From positions 1 to 6,933 of the forward strand of contig CAJWPW010000057.1 of assembly GCA_913045415.1 (NCBI GenBank): a DNA stretch of 6,933 nt, in the 5' to 3' direction. Of this stretch, positions 1 to 6,885 are shown in pieces (positions within the stretch are counted from its first letter, which is position 1; every line of letters begins with the position of its first letter). The stretch is from an uncultured Fidelibacterota bacterium. Lineage in GTDB: Bacteria > Marinisomatota > Marinisomatia > Marinisomatales > UBA1611. The notes under the pieces were generated by a model. The model was given only the letters and a program-made list of their open reading frames with translations, was not told the DNA's origin and made no database searches. The position numbers were made by a program, and so were the translations under genes.

Positions 1-54
1 TTAGGACTCCAGGTTTTCATCCTGGCAACAGGAGTTCGATTCTCCTACGGGCTA
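1..54 (+). tRNA. tRNA-Glu (anticodon UUC), 5' end cut by window edge
   Basis: This is the 3' part of a tRNA that decodes GAA/GAG as glutamate. The visible parts are the 3' strand of the D-stem (GGAC, 4-7), an anticodon stem CCAGG/CCTGG (9-13 and 21-25) with the seven-base loop TTTTCAT (14-20, anticodon TTC at 16-18), a four-base variable region (26-29), a T-arm AGGAG/CTCCT (30-34 and 42-46) with loop TTCGATT, the acceptor 3' strand ACGGGCT (47-53) and discriminator A54. The ACGGG acceptor strand and the CAAC variable region are like those of bacterial tRNA-Glu. CCA is not encoded, since CAT follows the discriminator, so CCA must be added by nucleotidyltransferase. The acceptor 5' strand and most of the D-arm lie outside the window. 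Confidence 0.93.
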
Positions 55-58
55 CATT

Positions 59-92
59 AAAAACCCTCGCTATTTACGAGGGTTTTTGTTTT
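59..92. terminator. Bidirectional rho-independent terminator
   Basis: A perfect stem CCCTCG (64-69) / CGAGGG (77-82) with a seven-base loop is extended outward by five A and five T residues, so a T-run follows the GC stem on either strand. On the plus strand it ends the tRNA transcript. On the minus strand it lies immediately after the stop codon of the secreted-protein gene. Confidence 0.9.
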
Positions 93-759
93 AATGAGTA
101 ACGGACACTTTTTCCCGCCAATCTTTATACCAACTAGCAAATGTCCACCAACCCCAAAATGTATCTTTTTTAATGGCGCGAAAAATGACTCTCTGATATT
201 CTAAAGAATCTTTAGGAGACATCCGGTAAGTACGCCTCGGATTTCCATGCAATCCTTTGATCACCAGCCATTGACCTTTCACATATATTAAGGTATGTTT
301 TGAGGCATCTCCTCCGGTGGGATTAATTAAATACACATGAATGAGGTCTTCTACGCCAGCCAGTTTCCTTCGCCAGTTTATTGATAAAACCGGGGTTTGA
401 AGGGTCACCCTTGTCATGGGCGTAAATAATACATCCACAATTCTCCAAGATTCACCTGGATTAATTTGACCATCCTTTGCATGAACCACCATATTTTTAA
501 TATTCTGGAGCTGTACGGGAACAATAAAATCCACTTCTCCTTCCTGAATTCCTTCTTCAAAGGAAAATTGTGTACCTAAATGGTGTATGGTAAACTGTTC
601 ACCCGTTTCTTCCACATGGATACCCAGGTGTTCAAAAACACCATCAAAATAGGTTAATAATTCAGGCGTTTGTAAAATATTCTGCCAGGTGTGTAGAGAC
701 GACGTAACTTGGGAATTCAGGGAAGTGATAGCGATAATACTGAGTATTATTTTTTTCAT
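91..759 (-). CDS. Secreted or periplasmic protein of unknown function (222 aa)
   Basis: I do not recognise this protein with confidence. The first ~20 residues (MKK, then a hydrophobic run IILSIIAITSL) look like a Sec signal peptide, so the mature protein is probably exported; there is no lipobox. The mature part is a mixed alpha/beta-looking domain without further membrane segments. It is poor in Cys and ends in a tryptophan-rich stretch (FWGWWTFASWYKDW, near residues 201-214). The middle section (acidic strands, then DFIVP, ESWRIVDVLF and an LTPVLS-like segment) vaguely suggests an SCP2/lipid-binding-like fold, but this is a guess. The ATG start is supported by a strong AAGGAGG ribosome-binding site (765-771) five bases upstream. 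The gene is monocistronic: it ends at a terminator and is divergent from the DUF2231 gene. Confidence 0.82.
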   Translation of the reverse strand: MKKIILSIIAITSLNSQVTSSLHTWQNILQTPELLTYFDGVFEHLGIHVEETGEQFTIHHLGTQFSFEEGIQEGEVDFIVPVQLQNIKNMVVHAKDGQINPGESWRIVDVLFTPMTRVTLQTPVLSINWRRKLAGVEDLIHVYLINPTGGDASKHTLIYVKGQWLVIKGLHGNPRRTYRMSPKDSLEYQRVIFRAIKKDTFWGWWTFASWYKDWREKVSVTH

Positions 760-764
760 GGCAA

Positions 765-771
765 CCTCCTT
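765..771 (-). promoter_or_regulatory. Strong Shine-Dalgarno site for the secreted-protein gene
   Basis: AAGGAGG on the minus strand lies five bases before the ATG at 757-759. It is a near-perfect complement to the 16S rRNA tail and fixes that start. The other genes in the window have weaker sites, so this gene may be translated unusually well. Confidence 0.8.
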
Positions 772-780
772 ATGGTGTAA

Positions 781-800
781 CCATTGGTATTTTCCAATGG
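781..800. promoter_or_regulatory. Perfect inverted repeat, candidate operator, in the divergent intergenic region
   Basis: CCATTGG (781-787) and CCAATGG (794-800) form an exact inverted repeat around a six-base AT-rich centre. It lies between two divergent genes, and its right arm overlaps the candidate -35 element of the plus-strand gene (791-796). This arrangement is typical of a repressor operator. A short mRNA hairpin is the other option. No regulator gene is in the window. Confidence 0.4.
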
Positions 801-819
801 AACCGAAAAGAAATATAAC
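791..819 (+). promoter_or_regulatory. Candidate sigma-70 promoter for the DUF2231 gene
   Basis: TTTCCA (791-796, four of six matches to TTGACA) is separated by 17 bases from TATAAC (814-819, five of six matches to TATAAT). This would start transcription near 826, about 25 bases before the ATG at 851. The prediction rests on spacing and consensus only. Confidence 0.35.
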
Positions 820-850
820 TTTAAACAGTTAATGTTCGCTAATTTTTTCC

Positions 851-1288
851 ATGAATTTTCCCCTTCATCCAGCACTGGTGCACTTTCCCATTGCATTTTT
901 GTATGGGGCACTTATTCTCCATGCGATTCAACTATGGCGACCGCACTGGATGTGCCGAATTATCGGCTTGTGGTTATTAGGCATGTCTGCCGTCATTTCT
1001 ATTGCCACATCTATTGCTGGGGAACGGGAAATGATTCGCGCTGGTCAAATAGGTTATTCGACTGAAATTATTGAAATCATGAACCGCCATGAGTTTATGG
1101 GAAATATTGTTGTTTGGGGATCCATCATACTTTTCATTATATGGATAACCCTATTTTTTAAAAATATGGAAGATCGCCGTGTGGATATATTGGCCTTTGC
1201 ATTTCTGGCCTTACTGGTTTGTGCCGTTTCTTTTACCGCCTATTTAGGTGGACAATTGGTATGGGTTCACGGGGTAGGTACCCCATAA
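851..1288 (+). CDS. DUF2231 family integral membrane protein (145 aa)
   Basis: This is a small inner-membrane protein of the DUF2231 family (COG4244-like predicted membrane protein). The family hallmarks are visible: the N-terminal HPALVHFPIAF motif (residues 6-16) and the C-terminal LGGQLVWVHGVG (132-143). Four transmembrane helices are apparent near residues 12-30, 37-56, 84-103 and 111-132. Histidines at 6, 11, 24, 80 and 140 lie at or near helix ends, and several are family-conserved, so heme or metal binding is conceivable. The biochemical role of the family is not established. The ATG at 851 is chosen because the HPALVHFP motif normally lies at the extreme N-terminus. No clear ribosome-binding site precedes it. 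The gene converges on the phosphatase gene with only 6 bp between stops. Confidence 0.88.
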   Translation: MNFPLHPALVHFPIAFLYGALILHAIQLWRPHWMCRIIGLWLLGMSAVISIATSIAGEREMIRAGQIGYSTEIIEIMNRHEFMGNIVVWGSIILFIIWITLFFKNMEDRRVDILAFAFLALLVCAVSFTAYLGGQLVWVHGVGTP

Positions 1289-1303
1289 AATAGTCTATTT
1301 TAT
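1271..1303. repeat. Nested palindromes at a convergent gene junction
   Basis: GGGGTAGGTACCCC (1271-1284) is a GC-rich inverted repeat in the last codons of the DUF2231 gene. It is followed directly by ATAAAATAG-T-CTATTTTAT (1285-1303), a perfect 9-bp inverted repeat holding the stop codons of both convergent genes. Together they may act as a weak bidirectional terminator, although neither has a clean T-run. The symmetry could partly be chance. Confidence 0.35.
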
Positions 1304-2407
1304 CAAACCAACCATTGGATCAACTACATGACCAACGGGCTGGTTACTGATAAAATCATAGCCGAGTAGATAGCCTAATGTTGTGGCCAATTGACTGGTA
1401 GCGATCGTATCAGTATTGGTCATTTCACCAATTGCAGGCGTATCCGGACCAATAATGGCTGTCCATAGAAATTCAGCCCCCGGCACACCATCGCCATGTG
1501 AACCCCAGGCACCATGTTCATAACTTCCACGACCATGGTCAGTTGTTATCATCATAGTTGTTTTACCCCGATACATTTCATTGGATTGTGTCCAATCCCA
1601 AATCGCTTTTATATAACCATCGGACCGGTTGGCTGTATTTAAATATTTGTCATATTCTCTTTGATGTGCAAACTCATCCGTTTCATCAAAAGAAATATAT
1701 AAGAATCGAGGTTTATTCAGTTTTAAATATTCAAAAGCATATTCAAACGTAAACGCGTCCCAACGTACAGCACTGCCATACCATGGAGAGGGAACATCTT
1801 CAATAAATGTGTTGAGCCACTGCTGTTTTGGAGTAAGCTTTTCATCATAAAATGGGTACCCGCCAGAATTAATAGTAAAATCATTTCTTTCCGTATTGAT
1901 AATCCAGTCAAACACATCCCAAGAAGCAAATGCGGCCACACGATCCTCAAAGCCTTCCTGCTGATCCAAAAATTCAAGCAAATTGATATTTGGATTCCAT
2001 TCTTTTTCATTACTATTCACACTATCGTCATTAAAGCCAACTAACAATTCATTATATCCTGGGTAGGAAAACCAATATGGGTTGGTCAATCGCATGACGC
2101 TCCCTTGTTCTTTATTCCCATAGATTTGACCCTGTTCTCCAATCGTGTTCCAAAAAAAGGGGAAAACTAATTTTCGTCTTTCACGATAGTCCTCAGACCA
2201 ATATTTAGCAGAAGTTGCTTCAACATCTTTTACGAACAAGGTATCAAGTACAATATTTTCATCGGCGCCATAAAACAAATCTTCCCAACGTACACCATCT
2301 AATGTAATTAAAATGACATTCTCAGTTTGGTACCCCTTTTGGTTTTTCGAATCATTTTTTCCACATCCAATCAGAATTAGACATAGAATAAAAATCTGCT
2401 TTTTCAT
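1295..2407 (-). CDS. Alkaline phosphatase superfamily lipoprotein (phosphodiesterase/sulfatase-like, 370 aa)
   Basis: This is a predicted metal-dependent hydrolase of the alkaline phosphatase superfamily, closest in style to type I phosphodiesterase/nucleotide pyrophosphatase proteins. A lipoprotein signal ends in the lipobox LIGC (Cys15), so the protein should be membrane-anchored outside the cytoplasm. Expected metal ligands are visible: Asp37 (ITLDGVR), Asp244 and His248 (DEFAH), Asp290-His291 (TTDHGRG) and His304 (WGSHGDG). Ser114 in FSYPGYNE aligns with the catalytic Thr of the TFPNH motif in phosphodiesterases, so it is the probable nucleophile. At 370 residues it is compact but complete. 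Its ATG overlaps the stop of the DUF4249-like gene (ATGA, 2404-2407), and AGGAT lies just upstream, which implies translational coupling. The substrate is unknown: a phosphoester, phosphonate or sulfate ester is possible. Confidence 0.88.
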   Translation of the reverse strand: MKKQIFILCLILIGCGKNDSKNQKGYQTENVILITLDGVRWEDLFYGADENIVLDTLFVKDVEATSAKYWSEDYRERRKLVFPFFWNTIGEQGQIYGNKEQGSVMRLTNPYWFSYPGYNELLVGFNDDSVNSNEKEWNPNINLLEFLDQQEGFEDRVAAFASWDVFDWIINTERNDFTINSGGYPFYDEKLTPKQQWLNTFIEDVPSPWYGSAVRWDAFTFEYAFEYLKLNKPRFLYISFDETDEFAHQREYDKYLNTANRSDGYIKAIWDWTQSNEMYRGKTTMMITTDHGRGSYEHGAWGSHGDGVPGAEFLWTAIIGPDTPAIGEMTNTDTIATSQLATTLGYLLGYDFISNQPVGHVVDPMVGLIK

Positions 2408-3411
2408 TGATCATCCTTTTTGACATAAATAACAAAATATATAGAGTGCGTTGATGAAAATAATCCATAGCCCCCTTCAATATTACTTTCCGGTAAAACA
2501 TATTGGTTTTGAGGCGGACCCATTGGAAAGCCCTTGAAATATTTTCGAAACGATTCATCCGCGACTTGAATTTCTATCAGGTGGGGACCATAATAGTTAA
2601 ATGACAGCCATCCAAAGTCTAAATAGTGCTGACTCAAATGCCATACAATTGGGTTAGCCCAATAATATTCTCCATCATCATTTACCATCATATGTCCTTT
2701 AAATATATGGGCAGAAAGGGATGTATCTACAATCGCGTTTGCAGGCGTCGCATCCATTGCATTACTAATAAGCCTGATCATACCAGGATCACTGTCCGCC
2801 TTCCAATCAACCACGAACATGGGTATAGAAGCAAAACTGGTTGTGTAACAACTTCCCTCTTTATAGGTCACTGTATCCATTTTTAGGATAGAAAAGTCTT
2901 TGGTTTTCATTGCAATAGAGATTTCCTGTTGGGTATTTTCATTGAGAAAAAGGTTAATCGGATCGATGATTATTTGTTTACCCTCACATTGGTAATCGGT
3001 AGTTTTAACCGATTGAATATGCAGACTGTCAGGAATGATAGTTTGAGACCTCAACTCTTGACCATTCCATTCAACCGATAATTCAAATGTTTCGTTTGGT
3101 TGAATCTGGCCTGCTCTATGTCCTACAATGTATCTCCCAGGATGGTTTGGATCAGACTCAAAAGGATATACTCGTGATCCTGTCCCGATAGATACTACCG
3201 CATCCGTAATCCAGTTGGCTTCCGCCTCATGGGCTTGATTAATATCATACGATCGTGAAACATAGATGGTATCCATCATCCATTCATTGGCTTTAAGATT
3301 TCCAAAAACTACCACTTTTTCTTCATATTTATCCGCATCATCCACCGGTTCACAGGATGATAATAAAATACCAAATGTCATCCCAATGAAAATAATTCGG
3401 TTAAAAGTCAA
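2404..3411 (-). CDS. DUF4249-like outer-membrane lipoprotein, partner of the TonB receptor (335 aa)
   Basis: The signal peptide ends in the lipobox LLSSC (Cys20), so this is a lipoprotein. The mature start is rich in Asp and Glu (CEPVDDADKYEEK). The body is beta-rich, with an early VVVFGNLKANEWMMDTIYVSRSYD region and a C-terminal SNIEGGYGLFSS motif (near 311-322), both of which resemble the DUF4249 family of Bacteroidota. That family commonly lies beside TonB-dependent receptors and is thought to act with them; its ligand is unknown. The start is TTG at 3409-3411: an in-frame TGA lies two codons upstream, and the next ATG (codon 11) would leave too short a signal peptide. The gene overlaps the receptor gene by 11 bp and the phosphatase gene by 4 bp. 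Family assignment is from motif memory and is moderately sure; the lipoprotein call is firm. Confidence 0.82.
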   Translation of the reverse strand: MTFNRIIFIGMTFGILLSSCEPVDDADKYEEKVVVFGNLKANEWMMDTIYVSRSYDINQAHEAEANWITDAVVSIGTGSRVYPFESDPNHPGRYIVGHRAGQIQPNETFELSVEWNGQELRSQTIIPDSLHIQSVKTTDYQCEGKQIIIDPINLFLNENTQQEISIAMKTKDFSILKMDTVTYKEGSCYTTSFASIPMFVVDWKADSDPGMIRLISNAMDATPANAIVDTSLSAHIFKGHMMVNDDGEYYWANPIVWHLSQHYLDFGWLSFNYYGPHLIEIQVADESFRKYFKGFPMGPPQNQYVLPESNIEGGYGLFSSTHSIYFVIYVKKDDQ

Positions 3412-5689
3412 AACTCACTCCAATACTAGGGATAATGGGTAATCCGTTTATCACCAAACGCTGGGGTCGGCCTTCATCCGCTTCATCTATTTCTTTATCC
3501 CCATCATCATCCATCCCATTTTGAGTGCTGCCAAACTGGTATGCATACCGGAATACATTTTTTTGCCAATAGGAATTAACGATTTGAATAAACAAATCCA
3601 TCTTTTTTCCTTTCACACTTGTATGCCATACAGCACCCAAGTCCAATCGATGGTACAGGGGATAGCGGCCACCATTCCTTGTGCCGGGAATGGTTCGATA
3701 GATCTGATTGGACGCGTCAGGTACCTTCTCAATATAATACCCTAAAATGGGCGTATAGGGCTGGCCAGTTTGATAGGTCCACTTACCGTTAATATCCCAT
3801 TTTTTATTTAATCTGTAATTACCGATAATATTAAATACGTGTCTCCGATCCCAGTTGGTATAATATTCTTCTCCATGGAATTTTTTGCGTGAGAGTGACC
3901 ATGCATATGATGCCCAGCCGTTTAATCGCCCCAATCGTTTTTCGAGAAACAATTCGAATCCATAGGCATGACCGTCTCCCACATCCACCAAATCATCCAA
4001 TGTTTCATCTGGAATCATTTCGTCAACCGTAGACCGAGTATCCACAAATGTCAGGAGATTTTTCATATCTTTATAATAGGTCTCAATCTGCACATGATAG
4101 GAAGAACCGAAATATTCTTCATAACCTAAAACAACCTGAATGGCAGATGCAGGATCCACCGAGGGATCAATGGCAAACCAAGCATCTAAAATTTTAGGAT
4201 TAAAATCATCTTGGATCGTTTCCATAAATTGATGATATATGCCAGTTGAAAAATTTATATAACGATCATTGGTCAATAAATATTTCATCCCAAGCCGAGG
4301 ATCCATAAACCAGTTTTCGGCGGCCTTATCATAATAATTCACTCTAAATCCTGGTTCAATCATTAGCTTTTTTGAAAGCCAATATTTTGTTTTGATATAG
4401 GCCGCTGCTTCAATCGGGTGAGACCGGGTATCAAAAATGACACTATCCAAAAAACTGCTACTATATACAAAATCCAAATCCTTTATTTCTATTCCAAATC
4501 GGACTTGGGCATCCTGGGACGCAAACCATGTCCAATCAGAGCGAAAGGTTAAATCATCAATATAATCTTCCTCATTAACGCCCGAATCACCCCCGAGTCC
4601 AAAAAATATATCGAATCGACTTTTTGCCAACAACCAGTTTGAAACCAACTTTGTATTAAAAAATTTGCGGTAATTCATACTGATGGTGCGATTCCCCCAT
4701 ACACCTTTCAGCATTATCTCATCCCAGAATAAATCATCTTTCCCCGTATAAAACGACATAGAAATCCGATCATTTTTCCCCACATCCTGAAAAATATGTC
4801 CCTGCAAATCGTAAAAATAATAGGGGAAATGAAAACTGGTTCCTTTAAAAACTTGATCAAAATATGTCCTTCTGCCTGACATGAGCCATGCGCCCTTCCC
4901 AATGGGTCCTTCCATGGTGGTTTGTGCCGAAAGAAGGGACACGGATCCTTTGCCGTTAAATTTATTTCTATTTCCCTCCCGGCTCCGCACATTCAACACT
5001 GCGGACAATCGGCCGCCATATTCCGCATTGAATCCCCCTTTTAAAAGGTCCGCTTCTTTAATGGCATCCACAATAAAGTTGGAAAAAAATCCTCCCACAT
5101 GAGATGGATTATATACAGTGATGCCATCAAGTAAAATTAAATTTTGATCCGAATTGCCGCCCCGAATAATTAAACCTGTGCTGAATTCAGATTCTGTTAA
5201 TACGCCTGGCAGACTTTGGAGAGAACGGAATAAATCGGCTTCACCTAATTGGGGTACATTTTTTAGTTGACGCATATTCAGGGTATTCCGACTGATTTGG
5301 ATATTGACTCTTCGGTCAACCTCTTCGCCTGTTACCTCAATCAAACTCATTTCGATTGGTGTTATTTCCAATGTGACAGAAAATGCTAAGTCAACGCCAT
5401 TTTTGAGAGAAACTGATTTTTTAAGTGTATTATATCCTAGATAAGAAACAACGACCGTATAATTCCCCGATGGAATTTCACTGATAACAAAATATCCATC
5501 ATGATTTGTAGCCGTTCCTCGATCCGTCCCTGCCAAATATACATTGGCACCGATAAGAGCTTCACCAGAACTTTCGTCGGTGATAAATCCATAAATCTGG
5601 TTGAATTCTTGGGATTGAAGAAATCCCAGTAACAAGATTAGGACTAAACTATTTTTTCCCCAAGATGTCGTCAAGAATTTCCCCTGCAT
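3401..5689 (-). CDS. TonB-dependent receptor with carboxypeptidase-regulatory-like domain (762 aa)
   Basis: This is an outer-membrane beta-barrel that should import a ligand using TonB energy. In order, it has a signal peptide (hydrophobic 15-24, ending near LQSQ, 24-27), a CarboxypepD_reg-like beta-sandwich (about 30-110, with the GEALIGANVYL and DGYFVISEIPSGNY signatures), a plug domain (about 130-240, with LPGVLTES, IIRGG and ILLDGITVYNPSHVGG) and a barrel to the C-terminal Phe762 (SFDF). A full-length size of 762 residues fits the family. An acidic DDDGDKEIDE segment (727-736) sits just before the last strands. The ATG at 5687-5689 lies 41 bp inside the peroxiredoxin gene and has no good ribosome-binding site. 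TTG at 5672-5674 (codon 6) has GGGG six bases upstream and is a serious alternative start. The ligand cannot be told from sequence. Confidence 0.94.
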   Translation of the reverse strand: MQGKFLTTSWGKNSLVLILLLGFLQSQEFNQIYGFITDESSGEALIGANVYLAGTDRGTATNHDGYFVISEIPSGNYTVVVSYLGYNTLKKSVSLKNGVDLAFSVTLEITPIEMSLIEVTGEEVDRRVNIQISRNTLNMRQLKNVPQLGEADLFRSLQSLPGVLTESEFSTGLIIRGGNSDQNLILLDGITVYNPSHVGGFFSNFIVDAIKEADLLKGGFNAEYGGRLSAVLNVRSREGNRNKFNGKGSVSLLSAQTTMEGPIGKGAWLMSGRRTYFDQVFKGTSFHFPYYFYDLQGHIFQDVGKNDRISMSFYTGKDDLFWDEIMLKGVWGNRTISMNYRKFFNTKLVSNWLLAKSRFDIFFGLGGDSGVNEEDYIDDLTFRSDWTWFASQDAQVRFGIEIKDLDFVYSSSFLDSVIFDTRSHPIEAAAYIKTKYWLSKKLMIEPGFRVNYYDKAAENWFMDPRLGMKYLLTNDRYINFSTGIYHQFMETIQDDFNPKILDAWFAIDPSVDPASAIQVVLGYEEYFGSSYHVQIETYYKDMKNLLTFVDTRSTVDEMIPDETLDDLVDVGDGHAYGFELFLEKRLGRLNGWASYAWSLSRKKFHGEEYYTNWDRRHVFNIIGNYRLNKKWDINGKWTYQTGQPYTPILGYYIEKVPDASNQIYRTIPGTRNGGRYPLYHRLDLGAVWHTSVKGKKMDLFIQIVNSYWQKNVFRYAYQFGSTQNGMDDDGDKEIDEADEGRPQRLVINGLPIIPSIGVSFDF
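3418..3421 (-). promoter_or_regulatory. Ribosome-binding site supporting the TTG start of the DUF4249-like gene
   Basis: GGAG on the minus strand lies six bases before the TTG at 3409-3411, inside the last codons of the receptor gene. An in-frame stop (TGA, 3415-3417) sits between the site and the start, which excludes any longer reading. This makes TTG the only start that keeps a full signal peptide. Confidence 0.6.
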
Positions 5690-6179
5690 GTGAATTGACG
5701 TTCATTTTTTTGTATATTTTTTCAATCCGTCCTTCCGGACTAATGAGAAATGTCACCCGGCTTGACCATAAACGTCCTTTCGTACCATATGCTTTGGATA
5801 CATCTTTTCCTTTATCTGATAATAAAGTGAATGGAAGCACATGCTTTTTCTTAAATGATTTTAAGGCTTTGGGTGAATCATAACTGATGCCAAATACAAT
5901 GATGTTTGCTTTTTCATATTCACTGAATGCGTCGCGGAACCCGCAAGCTTCTTTCGTTCATCCGGGCGTATCGGCTTTGGGAAAAAAATAAACCACCACT
6001 CTTTTCCCTCGATAATCCTTAAGGGTTACTTTTTGTTTATCGTGAGATAAAAGTGTAAAGTCCGGAGCCATATCTCCAACTTTGAGGGTATCACTTTCCT
6101 TCCCAAATATTTTTAATGTAGCAAAAAGAAATCCAATTGCGAGTATAATTATGAGTATTACCTTCATTTTCCTAACCAT
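5649..6179 (-). CDS. Selenocysteine-containing BCP-type peroxiredoxin, membrane-anchored (176 aa, UGA = Sec74)
   Basis: This is a thiol or selenol peroxidase of the BCP/PrxQ class, which reduces hydrogen and organic peroxides. The frame contains one in-frame TGA (5958-5960), precisely at the peroxidatic residue of the motif PKADTPG-U-TKEAC. It stays open from the ATG at 6179 to the TAG at 5649. Family features lie on both sides of the TGA: VGDMAPDFTL (34-43) and VVVYFFPKADTPG before it, and the resolving Cys79 (U+5, as in BCP), CGFRDAF, FGISYDS and the catalytic Arg141 (SSRVTFLISPEGRI) after it. Residues ~6-24 are strongly hydrophobic after MVRKMK and have no lipobox, so it is an anchored or exported enzyme. 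A later ATG at codon 5 (6165-6167) is also possible. A SECIS-like hairpin follows the TGA. It is the first gene of a four-gene overlapping operon. A pseudogene or sequencing error is the alternative reading. Confidence 0.88.
5925..5951 (-). promoter_or_regulatory. Candidate bacterial SECIS element in the peroxiredoxin mRNA
   Basis: After the UGA and six intervening bases, the mRNA can fold into an 11-bp stem. Six inner pairs (UUGCGG with CCGCGA) close a three-base GUU loop (5938-5940). A bulged C (5931) and two pairs follow, then a bulged A (5928) and three more pairs (GAA/UUC). The apical loop starts 18 bases after the UGA and begins with G. This is the distance and loop rule known for bacterial SelB-binding hairpins, such as the one in fdhF. 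The folding was done by eye, without energies. Confidence 0.65.
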
Positions 6180-6402: not shown

Positions 6403-6885
6403 TTATACCCATAATGGCGAATTGAGGTCGAACATACCAATCATGGCTAAGGATCCTGTATATAAGACCACGGGTAAAAGAACGGTAACATATCCAAATA
6501 AAAATAACCCGGATACCAGGGAACGCGTCGTTTTATCAAAGCGTTTTTCCAAAAACGCCGGTGTAGTTGTAAATCCAATGGCCAAATACCTTGGCAGAAA
6601 AACCAATGCAGTTGCAATCATGGCGAAGGCCGCAAGTGCTTCCCAGACAATTTCCACCAACGCTTTATCCCCAAATACGGAGCCATTTAGCCCTACCAAT
6701 TGTTCTGTGGAAAGATTGGTCAGTAATAAGGAACCTGCAACCACGGGCCATGCCAAGGCACGGTCACCGGTAAAATATTCTTCTGAGGTATTATCAGATT
6801 TTCTCATGCCATGAACGATCCGATATGTAAAAAAGGCCACAGCACCTGTAGCCAAAACGAATGAAATAATGGAAATTGTATTCAT
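6403..6885 (-). pseudogene. Truncated sodium:solute symporter (SSS/SLC5 family), N-terminal 160 aa
   Basis: The N-terminus of a sodium-coupled solute symporter is clear. It has a first membrane helix (about 4-24), EEYFTGDRALAWPVVAGSLL (36-54), the family signature NLSTEQLVGLNG (57-68), then helices near 77-98 and 122-148 with RYLAIGFTTTPAFLEKRF between them. Family members usually have about 450-600 residues and 11-14 helices. This frame stops at 6403-6405 after 160 residues, so about two thirds of the transporter is missing and it cannot be functional as a normal carrier. In another frame the same DNA reads through a hydrophobic tail (IMGITIGIYLLLTWIAI) to a TAG at 6362-6364, perhaps the original C-terminal helix left by an internal deletion. 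The ATG at 6883-6885 directly abuts the stop of the upstream gene, so it was once the second gene of an operon. Confidence 0.75.

Follow-up and report, generated by a model that had tools for sequence, protein, structure and literature searches.

A predicted selenocysteine-containing peroxiredoxin of the BCP/PrxQ type in Fidelibacterota

A BCP/PrxQ-type peroxiredoxin frame of an uncultured Fidelibacterota bacterium almost certainly encodes a selenoprotein, with selenocysteine (Sec) inserted at the UGA of codon 74. The frame lies on a 6,933-nucleotide stretch of contig CAJWPW010000057.1, referred to here as the window, and the gene is real and in all likelihood functional. The Sec reading, already put forward in the original prediction, is strongly supported by the conservation of the catalytic UGA, by a hairpin directly after it and by SelA, SelB, SelD and tRNA-Sec in close relatives. 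Published papers are cited by PMC number.

Reading frame and catalytic codon

The original prediction described a BCP-like frame of 176 codons with a single TGA, which replaces the peroxidatic cysteine. Both points were borne out: the frame runs on the minus strand from 6179 to 5649, and the TGA is codon 74, within TPG-U-TKEAC. A plus-strand reading of 5649..6179 was rejected, its translation being full of stops. The gene and the residues of its site are as follows.

5649..6179, minus strand: predicted Sec-containing BCP/PrxQ-type peroxiredoxin coding sequence, 176 codons, ATG start, TAG stop
5979..5981, minus strand: Pro67 of the PxxxTxxU motif (motif from PMC13188914)
5967..5969, minus strand: Thr71 of the PxxxTxxU motif (motif from PMC13188914)
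5958..5960, minus strand: in-frame UGA, codon 74, predicted to be read as selenocysteine (peroxidatic residue)
5943..5945, minus strand: Cys79, putative resolving cysteine, five residues after Sec
5757..5759, minus strand: Arg141, invariant in a 24-row alignment

The window protein thus contains PxxxTxxU with UGA at the peroxidatic position, and Pro67, Thr71, the UGA codon, Cys79 and Arg141 together fit a peroxiredoxin site. Cys79 and Arg141 were predicted to be intact, and both are present. The arginine and the resolving cysteine have recognised roles in peroxiredoxins.

With Cys put for Sec, the protein matches PF00578 (AhpC-TSA) at 132.1 bits against a cut-off of 26. The best NCBIfam model is NF006960 (BCP, thioredoxin-dependent thiol peroxidase), with 139.5 bits over residues 30-172, again with Cys put for Sec; this is half a bit short of the curated cut-off of 140 of a model for Cys enzymes. 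NF040737 (peroxi_PrxU), a thioredoxin-dependent peroxiredoxin model whose U presumably denotes a Sec member, gave 51.6 bits, below its cut-off of 270, and represents a different subfamily from the window protein. The best relative of solved structure is the Bcp homologue PDB 3drn (E 1.9e-31, residues 32-170), which differs in being no selenoprotein; in the deposited chain, Ser occupies the peroxidatic as well as the resolving position.

To follow the catalytic codon among relatives, it was read in 103 loci, made up of the window and 12, 30 and 60 loci from three rounds of similarity matches. The codon is TGA in 74 loci, TGC in 18 and TGT in 11, and in all 74 TGA rows the TGA stands at the peroxidatic codon. 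Eleven of these rows repeat a locus already in the set, and one more duplicates a sequence found in a different genome, leaving 91 distinct rows (62 TGA and 29 Cys). Since the set was drawn from the highest-ranking similarity matches, the ratio of TGA to Cys is no census. Cys homologues aligning at residue 74, which the original prediction had proposed to look for, were found (TGC or TGT in 29 of 103 loci), and its argument that a chance nonsense mutation was unlikely is upheld by TGA at the same codon in the other 74.

The window protein has a match at E 0.001 in 237 of the 245 genomes of the phylum of its nearest relative, and the TGA rows were contributed by 59 of these genomes and by locus L013. 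The contig of L013 is titled Chloroflexi (NP954), while its Sec peroxiredoxin groups with Fidelibacterota rows in the tree described below; it is perhaps a misnamed or misbinned MAG, or a transfer. The nearest locus, L001, belongs to a Candidatus Neomarinimicrobiota MAG and its peroxiredoxin shares 95% protein identity with that of the window. Because 59 genomes of the phylum share the same TGA, a read error at 5958-5960 is very unlikely.

Cys79 is kept in 71 of the 74 TGA rows. The exceptions, L203, L204 and L215, are TGA peroxiredoxins with Lys for the resolving Cys and without a stable hairpin of the common type; they may be a separate Sec lineage, or something else. A leader-like hydrophobic stretch is found in 54 of the 62 distinct TGA rows by a crude hydrophobicity count, which makes an envelope location of the Sec peroxiredoxin likely.

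From these features a course of action can be proposed. SelB with Sec-tRNA would bind the hairpin, and Sec would be inserted at codon 74. The Sec74 selenolate, aided by Thr71 and Arg141, would reduce peroxide, whereupon a Sec74-Cys79 selenenylsulfide would form and be reset by a thioredoxin-like reductant. The hydrophobic leader suggests that the enzyme is active at the cell envelope.

The hairpin after the UGA and the Sec machinery

Bacterial SECIS elements are described as stem-loops that directly follow the UGA and carry a guanosine in their small apical loop (PMC1088965). The window has this feature:

5929..5948, minus strand: predicted bacterial SECIS hairpin, 5' arm GCUUGCGG, 3' arm CCGCGA-(C)-GC
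5938-5940, minus strand: GUU loop of the predicted SECIS, starting 18 nt after the UGA

It recurs in 44 of 57 Sec rows, in which the optimal fold opens into an apical loop whose first base is a G lying 16-18 nt beyond the UGA; covariation of the stem pairs is weak. At 10-24 nt past the UGA lies GCUUGCGGGUUCCGC, which is largely invariant at the DNA level, the third base of Ala78 apart. Gly80 is GGG in 44 of the 53 Sec genes with Gly there (90 of 525 elsewhere in these genes), Phe81 is TTC in all 50 with Phe there (171 of 736 elsewhere) and Arg82 is CGN in 58 of 58 (105 of 299 elsewhere), with codons 80, 81 and 82 mixed in the 29 Cys genes. These codon counts indicate that the hairpin is held by synonymous codon choice.

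When folds were compared with protein-keeping recodings, Sec genes had a hairpin of greater stability than expected and Cys genes did not: the median z was -2.35 for Sec genes (n=58; rows with N or shorter than 90 nt left out) and -0.06 for Cys genes (n=29), with p 1.5e-7. The 5% level was reached by 37 of the 58 Sec genes, leaving 21 below it, and by 4 of the 29 Cys genes; the window hairpin has -9.6 kcal/mol and a z of -2.0. The best fold differs from the common hairpin in 13 of 57 Sec rows, including L203, L204 and L215. Four rows (L176, L194, L195 and L196) build a six-pair stem from other letters; its loop, GUU or GUA, lies 17 nt downstream of the UGA.

Covariation was scored on a 54-row alignment (A2), from which L203, L204 and L215 of the 57 rows were omitted, and for a structure that bulges base 28 and differs in its lower stem from the window's own fold. 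Both sides had changed in one of 8 pairs. The score was higher in three of six slid controls, and paired cells were most frequent in the structure itself (75.9%). A test for pairing between two synonymous sites, the third positions of codons 78 and 83, returned p 0.008 for Sec genes; we assign it no weight, since it comes from 18 related sequences and the pair was picked once the folds were known.

The genome of the nearest relative, G001, contains SelA, SelB, tRNA-Sec(TCA) and a SelD that itself carries an in-frame TGA; selB and selA are adjacent on one contig. From such relatives we infer Sec machinery in the window organism too. In the 12 genomes from which the first TGA loci came, matches above the cut-off were obtained for SelB in 9, for SelA in 9 and for SelD in 10. 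SelD is full length with one in-frame TGA in nine of them (L117-L125), and is thus probably a selenoprotein there; G004 has two such copies, and the SelD of G011 is partial and without an in-frame TGA. ARAGORN, given the one best RF01852 locus of each genome, confirmed tRNA-Sec(TCA) in 5 of 12, the other seven being tRNA-Ser or tRNA-Leu. RF01852 alone overcalls: it put 7 of the 12 genomes over its cut-off, yet in G009 and G010 the top-scoring locus is a tRNA-Ser, so that tRNA-Sec was counted as present in 5 of 12.

Over the 245 genomes of the phylum, SelA is over the cut-off in 175 and SelB in 166, the latter against three SAR406 genomes with an orphan SelD in a table of PMC5029168. SelB (E<=1e-65) was found in 49 of the 59 genomes with the UGA versus 118 of the 186 others (one-sided Fisher p 0.003), and SelA in 51 of 59 versus 126 of 186 (p 0.003), in tests that count related genomes as independent and with some weaker TGA-bearing matches among the 186. 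Seven of the 10 UGA genomes without SelB have a SelD carrying an in-frame TGA, and two (G109 and G146) have SelA. At the thresholds used, 8 of the 59 UGA genomes have neither SelA nor SelB, and G104 and G135 (0.9 and 1.2 Mb) have none of SelA, SelB and SelD. The missing genes are likely due to incomplete MAGs.

Instead of Sec insertion, a near-cognate tRNA might read the UGA through at a low level in the window organism, whose own Sec machinery is predicted from that of its relatives. Such readthrough is hard to reconcile with a hairpin and a synonymous constraint that occur in UGA genes and not in Cys genes, or with the complete Sec machinery of G001, and we consider it very improbable.

Selection, neighbouring genes and decoding of the UGA

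The frame could also be a pseudogene, an ordinary Cys peroxiredoxin truncated by a nonsense mutation or a sequencing error; decay does occur nearby, where the adjacent symporter gene has been cut short. Close relatives, which the original prediction had singled out as the place to look for decay, speak against it. Compared with L003, L002, L132 and L004, the window gene has dN/dS values of 0.07-0.08 across the 42 codons preceding the UGA and of 0.06-0.12 across the 102 that follow, the values for L132 and L004 being rough since dS is saturated (near or above 1.5). Against L001 there are 2 synonymous and 4 nonsynonymous differences after the UGA, too few to judge. The ratios indicate that purifying selection acts after the UGA.

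A tree was calculated from fetched rows, 90 in all (59 Sec and 31 Cys, 2 of the Cys from Bacteroidota), after dropping identical proteins and rows in which X occurred more than 4 times; among 14 candidate outgroup loci, 12 fell out and 2 gave usable rows. One side of a supported branch (99/92) holds 51 Sec rows, including the window. The Sec/Cys label needs 3 changes on the tree, against 25.8 in shuffles, and at least 2 of the changes are forced by supported branches, so Sec and Cys have been exchanged more than once. This agrees with the 5 Cys-to-Sec events for Prx in a table of PMC1794560. The tree is midpoint rooted and therefore does not give the direction of exchange. With the UGA shared by 59 genomes of the phylum, low dN/dS after it against four relatives and a supported branch that sets apart a group of 51 Sec rows, the pseudogene reading is left with next to no probability.

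After the peroxiredoxin, overlapping TonB-receptor, DUF4249 and sulfatase-like genes follow in this order on the same strand, the sulfatase-like match being just below the Pfam cut-off.

3401..5689, minus strand: TonB-dependent receptor-like gene, directly downstream; the called ORF and the end of the peroxiredoxin gene overlap
2404..3411, minus strand: DUF4249 protein; ends in TGA and overlaps both neighbours

The peroxiredoxin and the TonB-dependent receptor-like gene form a probable operon. L003 matches window positions 38-6083 at 79.7%. L001 is 95.7% identical in DNA over positions 1-2484, and 95% in protein over the peroxiredoxin; between these flanks, the TonB-receptor/DUF4249 stretch (2485-5600, minus strand) is far less alike, with a 65% piece, 78% near the end and gaps between, which points to faster change of the receptor genes or to recombination. 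Upstream, a sodium:solute symporter gene (6403-6885, minus strand) is cut to 160 aa where L002 and L003 have 542-aa ORFs, and L001 matches just 81 bp of this stretch; to judge from these alignments, the truncation is local gene loss beside the peroxiredoxin. At the window edge, positions 1-54 (plus strand) hold the cut 3' part of a tRNA gene (Rfam RF00005, 32.7 bits), matched in L001-L004, L007 and L008.

A genome-wide altered code, with UGA read as Trp (as in table 4) or as another common amino acid, draws on the database proteins: at the Sec site, 22 of the 120 nearest proteins listed have Trp, 95 have Cys and 3 lack the motif. Two of the Trp proteins, P0012 and P0020, match at 100% identity the translations of loci that carry TGA in their DNA, so their Trp is a calling artefact, and gene calling under a UGA=Trp code would explain the false residue. 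A recurring database error is thereby brought out, the false 'TPGW' peroxiredoxins, 22 among the 120 nearest proteins listed. Two further proteins, P0029 and P0030, are C-terminal pieces. The original prediction rightly foresaw a two-fragment gene call, as table 11 gives a 73-aa ORF (5958-6179) and a 63-aa, GTG-started ORF (5649-5840). Trp is incapable of peroxidatic chemistry. Elsewhere in the window UGA serves as a stop, at the end of the DUF4249 gene; the five other complete window ORFs counted have 53 TGG and no internal TGA, one of them ending in TGA, and none of the SelB and SelA matches listed for the phylum has an internal TGA. An altered code is on these grounds scarcely credible. Window frames extended with TGA=U and read by eye gave no convincing second selenoprotein.

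Relation to known Sec peroxiredoxins

That Sec-containing peroxiredoxins are known, as stated in the original prediction, is confirmed by PMC1088965, which in 2005 listed COG1225 members with a TxxU motif and described the usual mis-annotation of such genes. These proteins (COG1225 Bcp, pfam00578, TxxU) share with the window protein the COG/Pfam label and the TxxU site; they likewise have a bacterial SECIS after the UGA, and they are marine. The 43 Sec Prx sequences from the Sargasso Sea (PMC1088965) and the 253 from GOS (PMC2398784) are metagenomic reads, likened here to the window protein by description. SAR406 is absent from the available GOS text (PMC2398784), and no Marinimicrobia assignment was seen there or in the available passages of PMC1088965. 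Sec peroxiredoxin is also listed by PMC9312934 and PMC13188914, both of which cite Sohling 2001 for the Sec-Prx of Eubacterium acidaminophilum. We found no report of a Sec peroxiredoxin in Marinimicrobia/SAR406 within an open-licence collection from which most subscription journals are absent, and the word peroxiredoxin is absent from the available part of PMC8318568, on a Marinimicrobia bin.

New here are the placement of a Sec peroxiredoxin in Fidelibacterota and the false Trp at the Sec site of database proteins. A phylum with few cultures thus gains a well-supported selenoprotein. More tentatively, and with somewhat less than even confidence, we suggest that an envelope Sec-PrxQ arose early in Fidelibacterota and kept its dependence on selenium across a broad clade (51 of 51 rows sampled); elsewhere in the phylum, other PrxQ lineages would have gained or lost Sec independently. 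Envelope peroxide defence in these bacteria would then depend on selenium supply, a dependence that may have gone unnoticed because databases show Trp or a split gene.
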